64,000 bases of DNA from Paraglaciecola sp. L3A3 (GTDB lineage Bacteria > Pseudomonadota > Gammaproteobacteria > Enterobacterales > Alteromonadaceae): the NCBI RefSeq assembly GCF_009796765.1, contig NZ_CP047023.1:4447501-4511500 (forward strand), read 5' to 3'. A program made the translations under genes and the position numbers. The notes under the pieces were generated by a model that saw only the letters and a list, made by a program, of their open reading frames with translations, was not told the origin of the DNA and ran no database searches. The stretch's first letter is position 1. Each line of letters begins with the position of its first letter. This document shows positions 4,554 through 36,317 of this stretch, one piece after another.

Positions 4554-5296
4554 ATTTTATATCCTATCAATACCACAAGGCATAATCTGAGTTTATTCCT
4601 TAGCCCAACCGCAGTTGAAAACCGAGTCACAGGTGAATTAATTTTCTTGTTCTGGGGTTGGTTAAGTCACTGTATAACATTAAACAGTATCGAAACGATA
4701 GATTCGAGATGCTAGGCAAAGAAAAGCAGCAACCAACAGATAAATTCCAATAAAAAAAATAAAGGCAAAAGCAAAAAACGTTACCACGGAAATTCACAGA
4801 AATTAACAAAGTGGCTTCGCCGAACAGACAATGAACCAAGGCTATTCCCCTTATAACTGGCGCTTTAAAAAGGAAATACAAAGCAGCGGTTAGTTACCAA
4901 TTTCGAACTAGAAAATTAAAGACAAAAGCATGCCTGTCTGCAACCGAAACTCAAATATAATCGGATCTGCCCTTCCCCATAAATCAAAAAAACAACACCT
5001 GAAAAAATAGACCAAAATATTGATTTTATTAACTATTTCGTCTTTGTTAAAGTAAGAAATAGCACAATTTTTTGTATCAAAAACGAGTAACATAGCTATC
5101 AAAGATAAGCCTAAATTGACTGCTATTTTATGAATTTTAGTGAAGATATGCGTAACAAAGTTAAATCTTATCTATGAGAAAAAACACTACCAATAATCGT
5201 AACCAGATACCCGTTAATAATAAATATTATTATAACTAAATAACGCTACTCTTAACTTCCAATTTACTCTTACATTGAATGGTTAAAAATAATTTT
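4554..5296. other. Intergenic region upstream of the lipoprotein gene
   Basis: About 740 AT-rich bases without a supported gene. The minus-strand frames at 4627-4881 and 4908-5102 have no signal, family resemblance or ribosome-binding site. At 5018-5034, on the minus strand, there is a TAAAATCAATATT block like the core of repeat family B. At 4811-4823 there is a degenerate GTGGC-TTC-GCCGA element similar to one unit of the hairpin array at 32.5 kb. The last 80 bases are very AT-rich and may hold the promoter of the next gene. Confidence 0.5.
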
Positions 5297-22309: not shown

Positions 22310-22504
22310 TCAGTACCAAAAACGGTAAAAATCGAACGTGATGCAATAATCGCATCACACGTGTGTAAAATTAACGCTATACAACATCACTACTTACTGA
22401 TTTAATCAGCTCAAAGCTTGAGGCGAAATATTTAGCGAACCAGATCCAATGCTTATTTGTATTGATATGCCGACCTAACTAATTCGACTTAAATTCTAAA
22501 TAGA

Positions 22505-22632
22505 TAACTAGGGTTCCGATTTATTTAATAAATGTCTGGTCCGAGAGTTATCAACCCAGTACATATTCAGTAATGAATATCTTGCTTCTGCAAAGGGTTA
22601 CACGGAGGGATAAAAGCCCGGGAGGTTAGTTT
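22505..22632 (+). promoter_or_regulatory. Guanidine-I riboswitch (ykkC class)
   Basis: The leader carries the conserved ykkC blocks in order: CTAGGGTTCCG at 22508-22518, GTCTGGTCCGAGAG at 22534-22547, ACCC at 22553-22556, and ACACGGAGGGATAAAAGCCC with GGGAGG at 22600-22625. These are the hallmark sequences of the guanidine-I aptamer. The expression platform offers competing pairings: GAGG (22622-22625) with CCTC (22640-22643), or GTTAG (22625-22629) with CTAAC (22647-22651). No U-tract follows, so control of translation or folding of the leader is more likely than termination. The first gene starts 51 bases later. Confidence 0.93.
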
Positions 22633-30646: not shown

Positions 30647-32458
30647 ATGAAATTACCAATTAACTTAAGCCCCCCTTTAAACTTAACAATTAGGGCCTTA
30701 CAACAAAGCTATAAAAATGGTGACTTTAATCCAAGTACCTTGATTACCGAATTGTTAGCTGAAGCTAAGAATTACCCAGAAAGCTGGATCCACATCTTAT
30801 CAGCAGCAGAAGTCGCACCATACGTTAAGGCGTTAGAAAACAAAACACCCGAAGAATGCCCCTTGTGGGGCGTGCCTTTTGCCATTAAAGATAATATCGA
30901 CTTAGCAGGCATACCTACTACAGCTGCCTGCCCAGAATTCAGTTACGTGGCAGAAAAATCAGCCTATGTGGTTCAACAATTGATTGAAGCTGGGGCTATC
31001 CCGTTAGGTAAAACTAACTTAGATCAGTTCGCGACAGGGTTAGTAGGCACTCGCTCACCCTATGGTGCGGCTCCCAATAGTTTTGATCCAGACTATATTT
31101 CTGGCGGTTCGAGTTCTGGCTCGTCTATCGCCACAGCTGTAGGTTTAGTCAGTTTTGCCCTAGGTACAGACACAGCAGGATCGGGACGAGTACCAGCATG
31201 TTTCAACAACTTGGTCGGCTTAAAACCTTCTAAAGGTTTGTTGTCGACCACAGGTGTGGTGCCTGCTTGCCGAAGTTTAGATTGCGTGAGTATTTTTAGT
31301 TTAACCGCAGAAGACGCACAAACTGTATTTTCGGTAGCCGCCAATTTTGATAGTACTGATGGCTTTGCACGACCCAATCCTATCTCTAATCAAGGGGCAG
31401 TAAACTATCCAGCTAAGTTTACCTTCGCCGTGCCGCTGCCAAGACAACTGGCCTTTTTTGGTAGTGATGACTACCAACAAGGCTACCTAGATGCCATCAA
31501 ACAATTAGAAGCCATAGGTGGCAGTAAAGTCGAAGTTGACTTTGCCCCATTACTCGATGCCGCCAAACTATTATACGAAGGTCCATGGGTTGCAGAGCGT
31601 TATGTAGCCACCCAAGATATTATCACCAACAAACCTGAAGCCATGATGGATGTGACTCGCACTATTATTAGTGCCGGTGAGAAACCCAAGGCCACCGACA
31701 CCTTTAACGCCTTGTACAAGTTACAAGATTTAAAACAGCTAGCAGACAAGTTAATGGCTGGTGTCGATGTATTTATGTCACCTACAGCGGGCCGACATTT
31801 TACTTTGGCCGAAATAGCCGAAGAGCCAATTTTGCGTAATTCACAATTGGGTTATTACACCAATTTTATGAACTTACTCGACTTTGCTGCCATAGCGGTA
31901 CCTATGTCATTTACCCAAGCCGATATGCCATTTGGGGTGACCTTATTCAGCCCTGCTATGACAGACCAAAAGTTATTAACTTTAGCTAGCCGCTTACGTC
32001 AGCATAATCAACTACCCTTAGGTGCCACCCAGCTCCCCTACCAAACACAAGCCACAAGCTTAGCACCAAGCAAAGGTTACATAGACATAGTGGTAGCAGG
32101 CGTTCACTTATCGGATATGCCACTTAATTGGCAACTTACCGACCGAGGGGCCATATTTAAATCCACGGCCAAAACCGCTGCTAAATATAAAATGTACGCA
32201 GTAGCAGGCAAAGTAGAACGCCCAGCCTTAATTCGCACTAAAGGCAATGGCAGTACGTTTGAAGTTGAGGTTTGGTCAATGCCCATCAGTGAATTTGGTT
32301 CATTTGTACAAGGCATAGCCGCACCATTAGGTATAGGCCAAGTAGAACTAGAAACCGGTGAAATCCTCACAGGTTTTATCGCCGAAGGGTATGCCGCTGA
32401 GATAGGTACTGATATTAGTGAGTTTAGTGGGTGGCGGGGGTATTGCGCTGCACGGTAG
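30647..32458 (+). CDS. atzF: Allophanate hydrolase
   Basis: The 603-residue amidase-signature enzyme converts allophanate to two ammonia and two CO2, the last step of guanidine use. The Ser-cisSer-Lys triad is visible: K81 in FAIKDNID, cis-Ser in GGSSSGSS at 153-160, nucleophile S179 in GTDTAGSGR. A C-terminal domain from about residue 470 (YIDIVVAGVHLSDMPLNWQL) is the decarboxylase-type domain of AtzF-like enzymes. GGAG 5-8 bases before the ATG; 9 bases after the carboxylase stop. Last gene of the operon, directly followed by a tandem hairpin array. Confidence 0.93.
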   Translation: MKLPINLSPPLNLTIRALQQSYKNGDFNPSTLITELLAEAKNYPESWIHILSAAEVAPYVKALENKTPEECPLWGVPFAIKDNIDLAGIPTTAACPEFSYVAEKSAYVVQQLIEAGAIPLGKTNLDQFATGLVGTRSPYGAAPNSFDPDYISGGSSSGSSIATAVGLVSFALGTDTAGSGRVPACFNNLVGLKPSKGLLSTTGVVPACRSLDCVSIFSLTAEDAQTVFSVAANFDSTDGFARPNPISNQGAVNYPAKFTFAVPLPRQLAFFGSDDYQQGYLDAIKQLEAIGGSKVEVDFAPLLDAAKLLYEGPWVAERYVATQDIITNKPEAMMDVTRTIISAGEKPKATDTFNALYKLQDLKQLADKLMAGVDVFMSPTAGRHFTLAEIAEEPILRNSQLGYYTNFMNLLDFAAIAVPMSFTQADMPFGVTLFSPAMTDQKLLTLASRLRQHNQLPLGATQLPYQTQATSLAPSKGYIDIVVAGVHLSDMPLNWQLTDRGAIFKSTAKTAAKYKMYAVAGKVERPALIRTKGNGSTFEVEVWSMPISEFGSFVQGIAAPLGIGQVELETGEILTGFIAEGYAAEIGTDISEFSGWRGYCAAR

Positions 32459-32461
32459 GTG

Positions 32462-32685
32462 TTTGCTGCGCTAGCAAAAGCATGGCTTCGCCATAAAGCA
32501 TGTGCTTCGCACACAAGGCATGAGCTTTGCTCACAAGGCATGGCTTCGCCATAAGGCATTCGCTTCGCGAACCAAGCATGGCTTCGCCATAAAGCATGTG
32601 CTTCGCACACTGAGCATCGCTGCGCGATAAGGCATTCGCTTCGCGAACCAAGCATGGCTTCGCCATAAAGCATGTGCTGCGCACA
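32462..32685. repeat. Tandem array of 12 covarying mini-hairpins, 19-bp period
   Basis: Twelve units. After an atypical first unit (TTTGCT-GCGCT-AGCAAA, 32462-32478), eleven units have the form NNNGC-TTC-GCnnn (TTC replaced by TTT or TGC in three), where nnn is the exact complement of NNN. Start positions are 32482, 32501, 32521, 32540, 32559, 32578, 32597, 32616, 32635, 32654 and 32673. The variable arms in order are ATG, TGT, TGA, ATG, TTC, ATG, TGT, ATC, TTC, ATG, TGT. Linkers of 6-7 bases read (A/C)AAGCA or AAGGCA. Spacing is 19 bp except for one 20-bp step. Confidence 0.93.
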
Positions 32686-32707
32686 CTAAGATTATTCACT
32701 ACGTTCA

Positions 32708-32749
32708 CCGCAATCCATTGCGGATTTGGTGCGGCATCCCTGCCGCACC
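32708..32749. repeat. Two hairpins following the array
   Basis: CCGCAA-TCCA-TTGCGG at 32708-32723 and GGTGCGGCA-TCCC-TGCCGCACC at 32728-32749, both with perfect arms and 4-base loops. Confidence 0.8.
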
Positions 32750-32750
32750 A

Positions 32751-32782
32751 GTTACTCTTTTTCAACAGCAAAAAAGAGTAAC
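32751..32782 (+). terminator. Possible bidirectional terminator after the guanidine operon
   Basis: GTTACTCTTTTT / AAAAAGAGTAAC, perfect 12-bp arms with a loop of about 8 bases. It lies 293 bases after the allophanate hydrolase stop and is the first structure there that looks capable of terminating transcription. There is no separate T-run, so it may instead be another member of the palindrome cluster. Confidence 0.45.
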
Positions 32783-32880
32783 CAGAAAATGCCGGCCTCC
32801 AAACAAATTCCTAATCCAACAAATAATTGCCTTCTATGTCAGACCGGCAATAAGCCGCTCCCAGCTATAAAAGATTGCCT

Positions 32881-32904
32881 TGTCCAGACGTCCATGTCTG
32901 GACA
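32881..32904. repeat. Palindrome TGTCCAGAC / GTCTGGACA
   Basis: Perfect 9-bp arms with loop GTCCAT. The same bases can pair alternatively as CTTGTC (from 32878) with GACAAG (32908-32913). Function unknown. Confidence 0.7.
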
Positions 32905-32959
32905 TCTGACAAGCCAATAATTTGCTGGGGAATTTGTAGTCGCGGTAAAATCAAAAGCA

Positions 32960-32972
32960 TCGGCTTCGCCGA
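32960..32972. repeat. Orphan unit of the mini-hairpin family
   Basis: TCGGC-TTC-GCCGA, preceded by AAAGCA and followed by CAAAA, exactly the linker context of the array units 290 bases upstream. The variable arm TCG/CGA is not present in the array. Confidence 0.75.
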
Positions 32973-33086
32973 CAAAATGCAGTGGTTCGAAGCTGGTAAA
33001 TAGATTGAAGTAAAAACAAAAATCTATCACTTACGGTTGTCGATACGGTAGCAAATTATCTCCCTTTCCCATCTTTCCCTAACGTC

Positions 33087-33120
33087 ATTCCGGTAGTCTT
33101 TTGAGCCGGAATCCATTTTT
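33087..33120 (+). terminator. Terminator-like hairpin with T-run
   Basis: ATTCCGG / CCGGAAT with a 12-base loop, then CCATTTTTTTT. It looks like a rho-independent terminator but no gene ends close upstream. It may be a REP-like element (CATTCCGG...CCGGAATCC). Confidence 0.5.
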
Positions 33121-33291
33121 TTTAATATTCAAATAAGTACACTTTACCTATTAAGGCTAGCTATTTTGTCCAATAACAGCAGATCAACGACAAATGTCGT
33201 ATTTCAAATAAGTATGTTTTGCACATGGGGAAGTTATTCGTTATAAATGAATACCTTATAGGTTGTGTAAAAAACAGCCCGAATGAAATTG

Positions 33292-33325
33292 GACAATTTG
33301 TCGTGTTTGAACACCCCAAATTGTC
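33292..33325. repeat. Nested hairpin GACAATTTG / CAAATTGTC
   Basis: Outer perfect 9-bp arms enclose a second small hairpin GTGTT-TGA-ACAC. No function is evident. Confidence 0.55.
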
Positions 33326-34085: not shown

Positions 34086-34159
34086 CAAGTGCATCATGTT
34101 GGGAATTTTACTCGCTGGTAAAGCGCTCCTAAAACCCCCATATGCAAAGCGTTATAAGC
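34081..34159 (+). other. attC-like site 2, between the membrane-protein cassette and the CD-NTase
   Basis: Left core ACCTAAC (fits R'' RYYYAAC), right core GCGTTATAA. Between them TGCAT pairs with ATGCA, and TGGGAATTTTA pairs with TAAAACCCCCA around a loop, so the site folds as an imperfect hairpin of about 78 bases. The R' core is GTTATAA rather than strict GTTRRRY. This is the clearest attC candidate in the window. Confidence 0.6.
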
Positions 34160-34171
34160 AAGGAGTTCTAT

Positions 34172-35053
34172 TTGAGCATCAGTGACAAATTCTCAAATTT
34201 TTGTACCGCCTTACGAATGAGCGATACAACTGTTTCGAATGTTCGTTATAGAGCAAAGCAGATTACAAAAAGGATTAATTCTGATTTTCGCGGAATTGAC
34301 TCTGATATTAGGTACAGTTTAGTTGTCGGTTCTTATGGTAGAGGGACTGATATTCATGTCAGTGATATCGATATGATTGTCGAGCTGCCATACACTGAGT
34401 ATGAAAAATATGACAAATACAATGGAAATGGTCAATCTGCTCTTATTCAAGCGGTAAAAGAATCAATTAAGAAAACCTACTCGACTACTCATGTGAGTGG
34501 TGACGGGCAAGTTGTAAAGTTGAATTTCAAAGATGGAATTTGCTACGAAATAGTCCCAGGTTTCATTAATAAAGATGGCTCAAGTTATACCTATCCAGAT
34601 AGTAATAGCGGTGGTTCATGGAAAGTAACTAAACCCCGTGAAGAAATTTCAGCGATCACAACAGCTAATAATTCGTGGAATAAAAACCTGAAGCGGCTGT
34701 GCCGGATGGCACGAGCATGGAAAGATAAGTGGGATGTACCTATGGGAGGTCTTCTTATCGATACGCTCGGGTATAACTTCTTGAAACAGTGGGAATACAA
34801 GGATAAATCTTTTATTTATTACGATTGGATGACGCGAGATTTCTTTGAATATCTAAAGAATCAAGACTCAGATAAAAATTACTGGCTTGCGCCCGGTAGT
34901 TCACAATATGTGTCGCGAAAAGGTGCATTTGAATACAAAGCGCTCCGGTGCTACAACATTACTAAAGAAGCGCTACAGTTCGAAGCAGATGAAATGCCGT
35001 ATTCAGCAAATCAGAAATGGCGAGAGATCTATGGAACAAAATTCCCTTCCTAA
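34172..35053 (+). CDS. CD-NTase (SMODS nucleotidyltransferase) of a CBASS system
   Basis: Cyclic-oligonucleotide synthase that is activated on phage infection. The motif GSYGRGTDIHVSDIDMIVEL (residues 53-72) supplies the GS loop and catalytic D65 and D67. The third acidic position is probably E126 in YEIVPGF, where many relatives have Asp. I choose the TTG at 34172 because AAGGAG lies 6 bases upstream. The in-frame ATG at 34142 lies inside the attC-like site, where its first codons would encode the recombination core. Length 293 residues. The gene overlaps the SLATT effector gene by 23 bases, and together they make a short type I CBASS. Confidence 0.88.
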   Translation: MSISDKFSNFCTALRMSDTTVSNVRYRAKQITKRINSDFRGIDSDIRYSLVVGSYGRGTDIHVSDIDMIVELPYTEYEKYDKYNGNGQSALIQAVKESIKKTYSTTHVSGDGQVVKLNFKDGICYEIVPGFINKDGSSYTYPDSNSGGSWKVTKPREEISAITTANNSWNKNLKRLCRMARAWKDKWDVPMGGLLIDTLGYNFLKQWEYKDKSFIYYDWMTRDFFEYLKNQDSDKNYWLAPGSSQYVSRKGAFEYKALRCYNITKEALQFEADEMPYSANQKWREIYGTKFPS

Positions 35054-35606
35054 TGTGTTAGAAGAACAGCTAAGAGAGTGTTTTGGGCGTGTCGCTTGGT
35101 CACATAAAACGCACGAAAAATGCTCTGACATATTAAATACTAGGCTCAACCGTATAAAGCTCTGGCAGATAATTCTGTCGGCAATCACAACAACAGGAAT
35201 TATCGCTGCTGTTTTTGGTGAGTCAAAGGAAATAGGCATTTTTTCCGCAGCTCTGTCTTTTGTTTTGACTGTTTTGAATACCTATGTAAAGCAATATGAT
35301 CTTGGTGGCTTGGCCCAGAAGCATTCAGATGCAGCAGTGGACCTGTGGAATATGAGGGAATCTTATCTCTCTCTTTTAACAGATATAAGGTCTGGTTGCG
35401 TAGAAAGCGATGAAATAAGAAAACATAGAGACGATCTTCAGGAGAGTCTACTGGAAATATATAGAGGTTCCCCTAGAACTATTGCTAAAGCCTACAAAGA
35501 AGCCACGAAAGCTTTAAAAAAGCTCGAAGAGCTAACGTTTAGCGATGCAGAGATTGATGCTATTTTACCAAAAGCTCTACGGAAGTCGGAGAACAATGCC
35601 TTATAA
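35031..35606 (+). CDS. SLATT-domain 2TM effector of the CBASS system
   Basis: The 191-residue protein has two closely spaced membrane helices (about 44-63 LWQIILSAITTTGIIAAVFG and 67-86) followed by a long cytoplasmic helical part. This is the SLATT layout (SMODS and SLOG-associating two-TM effector). It is expected to form pores or disturb the membrane when it senses the nucleotide made by the upstream CD-NTase. Start at the ATG at 35031 with GAGAG 4-8 bases upstream; a much longer in-frame extension to 34887 lies wholly inside the CD-NTase gene and is rejected. The TAA stop lies in the next attC-like core (TTATAACAAGCGC). Confidence 0.86.
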   Translation: MEQNSLPNVLEEQLRECFGRVAWSHKTHEKCSDILNTRLNRIKLWQIILSAITTTGIIAAVFGESKEIGIFSAALSFVLTVLNTYVKQYDLGGLAQKHSDAAVDLWNMRESYLSLLTDIRSGCVESDEIRKHRDDLQESLLEIYRGSPRTIAKAYKEATKALKKLEELTFSDAEIDAILPKALRKSENNAL

Positions 35607-35640
35607 CAAGCGCTTGCAGACCGACCAACAGTTGAGTACA
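35598..35640 (+). other. Left half of an attC-like site after the CBASS pair
   Basis: TTATAACAAGCGCTTGCAG followed by ACCGACCAACAGTTG resembles the left half of a long integron attC. The matching right half (a GCGTTATAA core) is missing, and the TIR gene starts about 12 bases later with its own ribosome-binding site. This suggests a decayed or deleted site. Confidence 0.5.
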
Positions 35641-35651
35641 AAGGAAGTATC

Positions 35652-36317
35652 GTGACTACAAAATCAAAAATTAGTATTTTTATTTCTTATTCATGGAGCG
35701 ACACTAAAATCGCTGATGAAATTGAAAGTGATTTAAGCCAGTTTCAATTAAATCTAGTTAGAGATGTTCGTGATATTGAATATAAATCTAGTATCACTAG
35801 CTTTATGGAAAAAATTAGAGACACAGATTTCGCTATACTGCTTGTGAGCGAAGATTATTTAAAATCAAAGAACTGTTTAAAGGAAGTTATACATCTTTTA
35901 AAAGAAAAAGAATACAAGCACAAAATTTTACCTATTATTGTTGGTAATCCATCTATTTATAATGCCGAAGGACGTGTTCTACACACTAGACATTGGTTGG
36001 AAGAAAAAAACAAATTAGAAAAATTAATAAATAGCTTACCAGCTACAGCTATCATCAATGAAATCCAAGAACTTAAAGTTTTGGAAAGTATCTCTTCAAA
36101 TATCAATGAATTCCTGAGTTATATAAGTGATATAAAAAATGTAACTTTTAGCGAACTAAAAGGTGAAAGTTACAAATCACTTATTGAATCGATTGGTGGG
36201 ATTAATGTCGAACATTTAGTTAAATTGTTGCAAATATCTTTGAATCCAAATATTGATGAAAAAGAAATTCAAATCGATGATTGGTTCGATAGTAATACGT
36301 CCAGTAGCAGGACATAA
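35652..36317 (+). CDS. TIR-domain protein
   Basis: The 221-residue protein starts at a GTG with AAGGA upstream. Residues 6-130 form a TIR domain: ISIFISYSWSDTKIADEIES at the start, ILLVSEDYLKSKNCLKEVIH with the putative NADase glutamate E78, and HKILPIIVGN. The rest is helical. TIR proteins of this size act in phage defence by degrading NAD or by making signalling molecules. It could belong to its own cassette rather than to the CBASS pair. Its end runs into an overlapping frame; see the next entry. Confidence 0.8.
   Translation: MTTKSKISIFISYSWSDTKIADEIESDLSQFQLNLVRDVRDIEYKSSITSFMEKIRDTDFAILLVSEDYLKSKNCLKEVIHLLKEKEYKHKILPIIVGNPSIYNAEGRVLHTRHWLEEKNKLEKLINSLPATAIINEIQELKVLESISSNINEFLSYISDIKNVTFSELKGESYKSLIESIGGINVEHLVKLLQISLNPNIDEKEIQIDDWFDSNTSSSRT

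Follow-up and report, generated by a model that had tools for sequence, protein, structure and literature searches.

REP, BIME and REPIN sequences are short dispersed palindromes that lie outside genes and sometimes form arrays. The GNA mini-hairpin is described as a well-studied, extraordinarily stable turn of DNA (PMC4686876, PMC6479982), a class defined by a GNA loop together with at least two G-C pairs (PMC4686876), and a title cited in PMC6479982 reports a sheared A.A pair in AAA DNA triloops. For RNA genes, intrastrand template switching has been proposed, in which a stable loop primes the rewriting of one arm from the other while the loop itself is kept; according to that report, tetraloops that are stable in DNA form are over-represented at these changes and three-base loops are not (PMC8794818). 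The TwoAYGGAY RNA (RF01731) has been proposed to bind CsrA, and a CsrA-binding motif has been reported for it (PMC4333381).

The locus described here belongs to Paraglaciecola sp. L3A3, whose genome is a single contig of 5.31 Mb (38% G+C in an even sample of 1.6 Mb). All coordinates refer to the window, the whole stretch of 64,000 nucleotides that was analyzed. A hairpin array starts past the stop codon of an allophanate hydrolase gene, which is preceded by a urea carboxylase gene, and a Guanidine-I riboswitch is found at 22497-22626. On the other side, beyond the element, lies a CBASS-like defense operon (34142-36317) encoding an oligonucleotide cyclase (PADLOC, 453 bits), a two-transmembrane SLATT effector (267 bits) and a third protein with weak TIR-type matches, the best of which reached 40 bits.

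The array is the tail of a composite repeat

The hairpin array with a 19-bp period described by the first-pass annotation is real. It comprises 11 perfect triloop hairpins of 13 nt with 5-bp arms between 32482 and 32685, preceded by a 17-nt hairpin. The units start at 32482, 32501, 32521, 32540, 32559, 32578, 32597, 32616, 32635, 32654 and 32673, a spacing of 19 bp and once of 20. Their outer triplets are ATG, TGT, TGA, TTC and ATC, as had been stated, and both arms pair in 11/11 units. The inner part GC-TTC-GC had been called fixed; this was not the case for the loop, which on the plus strand reads TTC in eight units, TGC in two and TTT in one, while the second pair is always G-C. Read on the minus strand, a unit has the form stem-C-GNA-G-stem, followed by ATGC. 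A GNA loop with at least two G-C pairs, the definition of a GNA mini-hairpin, is present in 10 of the 11 units, and the remaining one has an AAA loop.

Tandem Repeats Finder detected a 76-bp period across the array (2.5 copies, 87% match). The order TTC-ATG-TGT thus recurs because a block of four units was duplicated, and the window holds five independent stems rather than eleven, so that the case for covariation had to rest on other loci. The length of the array is nevertheless outside the range of chance chains: with arms of 5 and a spacing of 18 to 21, the window had a longest chain of 11 hairpins and the 1.6-Mb sample one of 3, compared to 3 (once) in 200 Markov shuffles of the window and 2 in each of five shuffles of the sample. 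Under looser settings (arms of 4, spacing of 16 to 24), chains of at least three units numbered 21 among the matches listed versus 15 in shuffled sequence, so that short chains alone carry no meaning. A CRISPR array was ruled out, the linkers being nearly constant and the variable parts being paired arms.

The first-pass annotation had regarded the array as free-standing and without a known family. Instead, it is the gene-proximal tail of a composite repeat that extends from 32462 to about 32974 and contains a TwoAYGGAY-like core. The features of the locus are as follows.

30647-32458, plus strand: allophanate hydrolase gene (TIGR02713, 746 bits, cut-off 511)
32462-32478, unstranded: first hairpin, TTTGCT-GCGCT-AGCAAA, 17 nt with a 6-bp stem and a 5-base loop
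32482-32685, minus strand: array of 11 mini-hairpins with the linker ATGC; C-GNA-G loops in 10 (GAA 8, GCA 2), AAA in 1
32695-32707, minus strand: imperfect unit TGAAC-GTA-GTGAA with possible tandem G.A pairs, read from the letters; the type recurs in other elements
32708-32723, minus strand: hairpin with an ATGGAT loop region (TCCA on the plus strand), of the same kind as in 29 anchored elements
32727-32750, minus strand: 10-bp hairpin with the loop GGGA
32751-32782, unstranded: GTTACTC...GAGTAAC hairpin; this part of the query (549-595) matches many genus genomes
32803-32944, minus strand: TwoAYGGAY-like core, RF01731 (36 bits, cut-off 43; cmscan of 32300-33300)
32958-32974, minus strand: orphan GNA mini-hairpin at the far end of the composite; a hairpin occupies this place in 7/14 genus loci

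With 36 bits, the window copy of the core misses the RF01731 gathering cut-off of 43, and it carries only one of the two AYGGAY loops, the first reading AUGGAC and the second CUGGGAGC instead of AYGGAY. A sister copy in the same genome (G000:C1:4800289-4800419) passes the cut-off with 45.1 bits. The orphan unit noted earlier at 32960 proved to be real and sits at the opposite end of the same composite, whereas the degenerate unit proposed at 4811 is unconvincing, as it has the GCTTCGC core and a short stem and lacks the GCAT linker. Past the orphan hairpin, at about 32975-33122, we observed more dispersed sequences (e.g., of the CGTCATTCCGG...GCCGGAATCC type) that are common to other loci. In another genome (G002, L240:1501-1663), a TwoAYGGAY match is enclosed by long terminal inverted repeats, resembling a miniature transposable element.

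Pairing and loop preference across elements

A first count of units was conditioned on the right half only, GC-N(1,2)-ATGC, in 152 kb of element loci. It returned 222 unique sites, 120 of which had GC across the loop, with the loops GAA (51), GCA (20), GTA (16), AAA (10), AAC (6), GGA (1) and others (16). GNA is by far the commonest loop in the elements and AAA the next class; AAC loops may, we presume, form a comparable A.C pair.

For a stronger test, we anchored 29 elements on the motif GGAG[CA][GT]CGGC, which lies outside the hairpins, and analyzed the zone from +60 to +460; the window copy, in which this exact motif is absent, is not part of the set. The C-GNA-G 5-mer occurred 146 times on the element strand versus 34 times on the other strand, the former corresponding to 93 distinct sites. 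At pairs 2, 3, 4, 5 and 6, respectively, 69, 52, 48, 46 and 17 of these sites were Watson-Crick paired, compared to shuffled means of 40.2, 22.7, 27.3, 33.7 and 24.9 and shuffled maxima of 53, 36, 39, 43 and 39. Pairs 2 to 5 thus exceeded all 500 shuffles among distinct sites, in a comparison that ignores shared descent and in which some of the 29 elements are orthologues, while pair 6 showed no excess. Neither did 34 sites from 20 control zones located 1 kb away, both strands included. The paired fraction was 0.58 in register and fell to 0.18, 0.14, 0.31 and 0.20 when the 3' arm was slid by -1, +1, +2 and +3. Furthermore, pairs 2 to 4 were all formed in 66/146 GNA sites but in only 21/580 other C-NNN-G sites. 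The stems hence covary over 29 elements, in line with the first-pass claim that either a structural constraint or copying templated on the hairpin is needed.

The same claim held that both arms change together in every unit. This stands for the window and fails genus-wide, where pairs 1 to 4 were all Watson-Crick in 36/93 distinct sites and 57/93 were not fully paired. The perfectly paired sites displayed 14 different stem triplets; in the remaining sites, two of the three pairs were formed in 14, one in 33 and none in 10. Compensation is therefore strong, yet incomplete and far from universal across the genus. In addition, some imperfect types are recurrent, such as A.G at pair 3 in 20/120 sites, which looks like whole-unit copying rather than repair.

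The preference for GNA loops is polar. Triloop hairpins of at least 5 bp on the element strand numbered 146 over the 29 elements, 74 of them with GAA, GCA or GTA loops, versus 7/60 in the control zones; 69 had C-GNA-G and only 2 (TGC and TCC) the inverted C-TNC-G. Among loops one step away from GAA (49 distinct units of at least 4 bp), the middle base was changed in 19, the first in 5 and the third in 1. A middle base that varies more than its two neighbors is what one would expect if the sheared G.A closing of the GNA loop matters.

We also used the wobble pairs to ask which strand folds. Where a single mismatch was present at pairs 2 to 4 (14 sites), it was a wobble on the GNA strand in 9 and on the other strand in 3. 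Over the 93 sites, wobbles on the GNA strand versus the other strand amounted to 8:2, 7:6, 7:15, 17:5 and 32:9 at pairs 2 to 6. The reversal at pair 4 is partly due to one recurrent imperfect type (8/120 sites), and at this pair the 120 sites included 11 A.C/C.A and no G.T/T.G. On balance, odd pairs, pair 4 excepted, favor wobble on the GNA strand. Folding energies (ViennaRNA) were the same for both strands and gave no separation.

Distribution, orientation and turnover

The family-wide pattern search suggested by the first-pass annotation found the strict array pattern in 4/295 genomes of the family, all within the genus. A DNA search with 32200-33300 gave a match in 22/22 genus genomes; among the matches listed, some were a short piece only, e.g., the GTTACTC hairpin. 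In the genome itself, BLAST of 32440-33200 against the 1.6-Mb even sample showed several stretches matching various parts of the composite. From 15 unit clusters and 7 elements in this sample, obtained with a motif slightly wider than the anchoring motif, we estimate about 50 unit clusters and about 23 motif-bearing elements per genome. RF01731 matched at E values up to 0.01 in 22/60 relatives (14 of them over the cut-off), in 10/22 genus genomes and in 0/14 control genomes. A scan of named genomes returned at least 120 stretches, of which 16 were inspected; Paraglaciecola hydrolytica S66 was the only one with an array of this kind among these, and most of the others looked by eye like chance matches, several in coding sequence. 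Some Lachnospiraceae contigs (L119, L123, L155, L181, L196) harbor a repeat of their own, a perfect CATCTGC-TTC-GCAGATG hairpin of the same loop class in another phylum.

Counts of triloop hairpins as such do not make the family stand out. In 1.6 Mb we counted 2203 with arms of at least 5, versus 2156 in one Markov shuffle, 349 chains of two hairpins versus 363 in shuffled sequence, and 123 C-G-closed GNA loops versus 136 in the reversed sequence. When the 3' arm was required to end in ATGC, 214 hairpins were counted versus 106 in the reversed sequence (GAA loops, 15 versus 3). As the excess appears only with ATGC after the 3' arm, the unit family shows in its own context alone.

Within 500 bases of the core in 14 core-anchored genus loci, C-GNA-G hairpins with a stem of 5 bp or more lay on the core strand in 43 cases and on the opposite strand in 6. 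A hairpin of the core strand was located at -5 to -26 in 7/14 loci, and some were found from about +250 on in 10/14. None was near the core in L238, L242 and L259, L242 having six in its farther flank. Around 13 RF01731 loci outside the genus, 14.6 kb contained three hairpins on the core strand and one on the other, which is not above the flanks.

In most elements, the tail is directed toward the 3' end of a convergent gene. Within 500 bases past the array, the next open reading frame (ORF) of the 29 anchored elements was convergent in 19 cases versus 3 co-directional ones (two-sided binomial, 0.0009); at least three of the 19 convergent cases are orthologues (L238/L259; L241/L244/L261), and counting each site once gave 16 versus 3 (two-sided binomial, 0.004, by our own arithmetic). 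Farther than 500 bases, there were two convergent and three co-directional ORFs, and two stretches had no ORF. Unit clusters of the genome and of G239 behaved similarly, with 28 convergent versus 5 within 250 bases, several clusters belonging to one element.

Following the array in the gene direction, a TCCN-loop hairpin is present in 29/29 elements. These TCCN/NGGA hairpins (L001 to L329) have 44 distinct paired stems, and stem variety is thus not confined to the array. A hairpin followed by at least four T was found in the gene direction in 21/29 elements and in the element direction in 2/29. In matched 400-base stretches, a TCCN/GGA-loop hairpin occurred in 28/29 elements versus 2/20 controls, none of which (0/20) had the T tract. 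In the window, a terminator-like site at 32726-32751 is one of four such sites found regionally, whereas shuffled sequence averaged 1.0. Some arrays (L002, L014 and one of the two L313 elements) start right past the gene's own terminator.

Comparison of orthologous sites revealed that the array is the fast-evolving part, its content differing where the flanks are 86 to 93% alike. G239 has a composite with other units after the same hydrolase gene, and no composite was seen in the 1.1 kb inspected at the hydrolase site of G251. G263 and G161 share a flank that is 93% identical over 1.4 kb and differ in the array region. At a site where the flanks of G054, G117 and G089 are 86 to 90% alike, the array is short, long and intermediate, respectively, and the stems of the orphan hairpin ahead of the core differ among them. 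Change is not universal, since the short arrays of G089 and G141 (91%) are nearly identical.

Origin and upkeep of the matched stems

With moderate confidence, we read the array as the rapidly changing tail of a dispersed multi-hairpin element that has a TwoAYGGAY-like core, shaped by duplication, structure-dependent upkeep, arm copying primed by the GNA turn, and selection. Units would multiply by tandem duplication, as the 76-bp repeat suggests, and the hairpin on the GNA strand would be what is maintained. The strand carrying the very stable GNA turn would fold back, allowing one arm to prime and copy the other; such intrastrand template switching would keep the loop and rewrite the stem in one step, and we consider it the likeliest way for whole stems to change. 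The folded strand, be it RNA or single-stranded DNA, would then be under selection that keeps some of the units intact. The upkeep is probably due to arm-to-arm copying, with the GNA hairpin as primer, together with selection, and template switching fits the data, including the scarcity of inverted loops. There was no replication-strand bias, 16 of 31 clusters facing one way and 15 the other. That the GNA turn makes the units self-templating, with new matched stems arising without selection on each unit and the array acting as a generator at gene 3' ends, is a tentative idea that we regard as rather doubtful.

The chief alternative, which may operate alongside template switching, is selection on a minus-strand RNA. 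Taken by itself, this explanation is possible, if somewhat doubtful: a multi-hairpin RNA with GGA loops would bind CsrA, the mini-hairpins would form its protective tail, and compensatory changes would be retained by selection. The mini-hairpins indeed share their strand with the TwoAYGGAY core (43 versus 6), GGA-loop hairpins with many different paired stems accompany all 29 elements and are rare in controls, the wobbles favor the GNA strand (9 versus 3), the genome has one CsrA gene, and TwoAYGGAY has its reported motif for this protein (PMC4333381). However, the genome already contains a separate CsrB-like RNA with many AGGA motifs (L341, about 1360-1800; G000:C1:1143381-1143681; 38 bits, Rfam cut-off 71), no sigma-70-like promoter was found in 32400-33200, and array content that differs at the same site sits poorly with a strict function. 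The opposite strand would be the relevant one if the array were a 3'-end device of the adjacent gene; small stems would then make up a 3' untranslated region that ends in an intrinsic terminator, composed of the TCCA-loop hairpin and a T tract. The convergent genes (19/22 within 500 bases), the T tracts in the gene direction (21/29 versus 2/29, and 0/20 in controls) and the terminator-like site at 32726-32751, one of four where shuffles average 1.0, all point this way. We nevertheless find such a device unlikely, because the loop constraint and most wobbles favor the other strand, the gene's own terminator already precedes the array in L002, L014 and one L313 element, and the T tract in the window is not directly behind the first hairpin.

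The REP-like mobility raised in the first-pass annotation found no clear support. Mobilization by a RAYT (Y1 transposase) would agree with the dispersed palindromic units and with six Y1_Tnp matches in the genome, and L339:2560-2860, at 0.75 to 1 kb from a Y1 gene, contains three GTA-loop hairpins and one ATGGAT-loop hairpin within a small direct repeat, so that both loop classes of the element recur there in a different layout. Yet none of the six Y1 loci of this genome has an array of ATGC-linked units in flanks of about 1.5 kb, L334 and L338 have a single GNA hairpin, which lies inside the Y1 match, and L335, L336 and L337 have none; we hold this explanation to be highly improbable. Tandem duplication with chance pairing is hardly credible: the 76-bp duplication does account for the repeated stem types of the window, but at pairs 2 to 5 none of the 500 shuffles reaches the covariation that the distinct sites of the 29 elements show. 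Overall, the interpretation given in the first-pass annotation is supported in part.

It has long been asked how the two arms of a stem stay matched. The array supplies many short units that can be counted, that share a favored loop and whose stems vary freely. Because these units differ between sister species, strain sequencing can distinguish selection on the fold from the copying of one arm off the other. In addition, the element is a natural repeat built on a loop class familiar from DNA chemistry, and it gives a candidate CsrA-binding RNA a tail specific to one lineage.

Judged by title and the opening of the abstract, none of the papers listed on TwoAYGGAY, on stable GCGAAGC hairpins, on repeats of Paraglaciecola, Alteromonadales or Pseudoalteromonas and on small dispersed repeats, with few subscription journals covered, describes such arrays. 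The element shares with TwoAYGGAY RNA its composite core, sister copies in its own genome and genus that pass the cut-off, and mini-hairpins flanking the core on the same strand; it departs from it in that the window copy reaches 36 of 43 bits with one AYGGAY loop and that no mini-hairpin tail turned up around the 13 matches inspected outside the genus. Like CsrB/RsmZ-type CsrA sponges, it presents several GGA-loop hairpins on the element strand; unlike them, it is dispersed in tens of copies, its RNA is putative, and a separate CsrB-like sequence exists in the genome. REP, BIME and REPIN sequences are likewise short dispersed palindromes, sometimes in arrays, whereas here there is no clear RAYT association and the arrayed units are co-oriented, 13 nt long at 19-bp intervals, with GNA loops. 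Finally, the units have the loop class and C-G closing pair of the DNA mini-hairpins d(GCGNAGC), with G-C always as the second pair in the window; the latter are described in the sources cited above as short DNA fragments, aptamer parts and quadruplex loops, in contrast to the tandem genomic arrays with varied outer stems reported here. A dispersed structured repeat is a known kind of element, and the hypervariable mini-hairpin tail is what is new.
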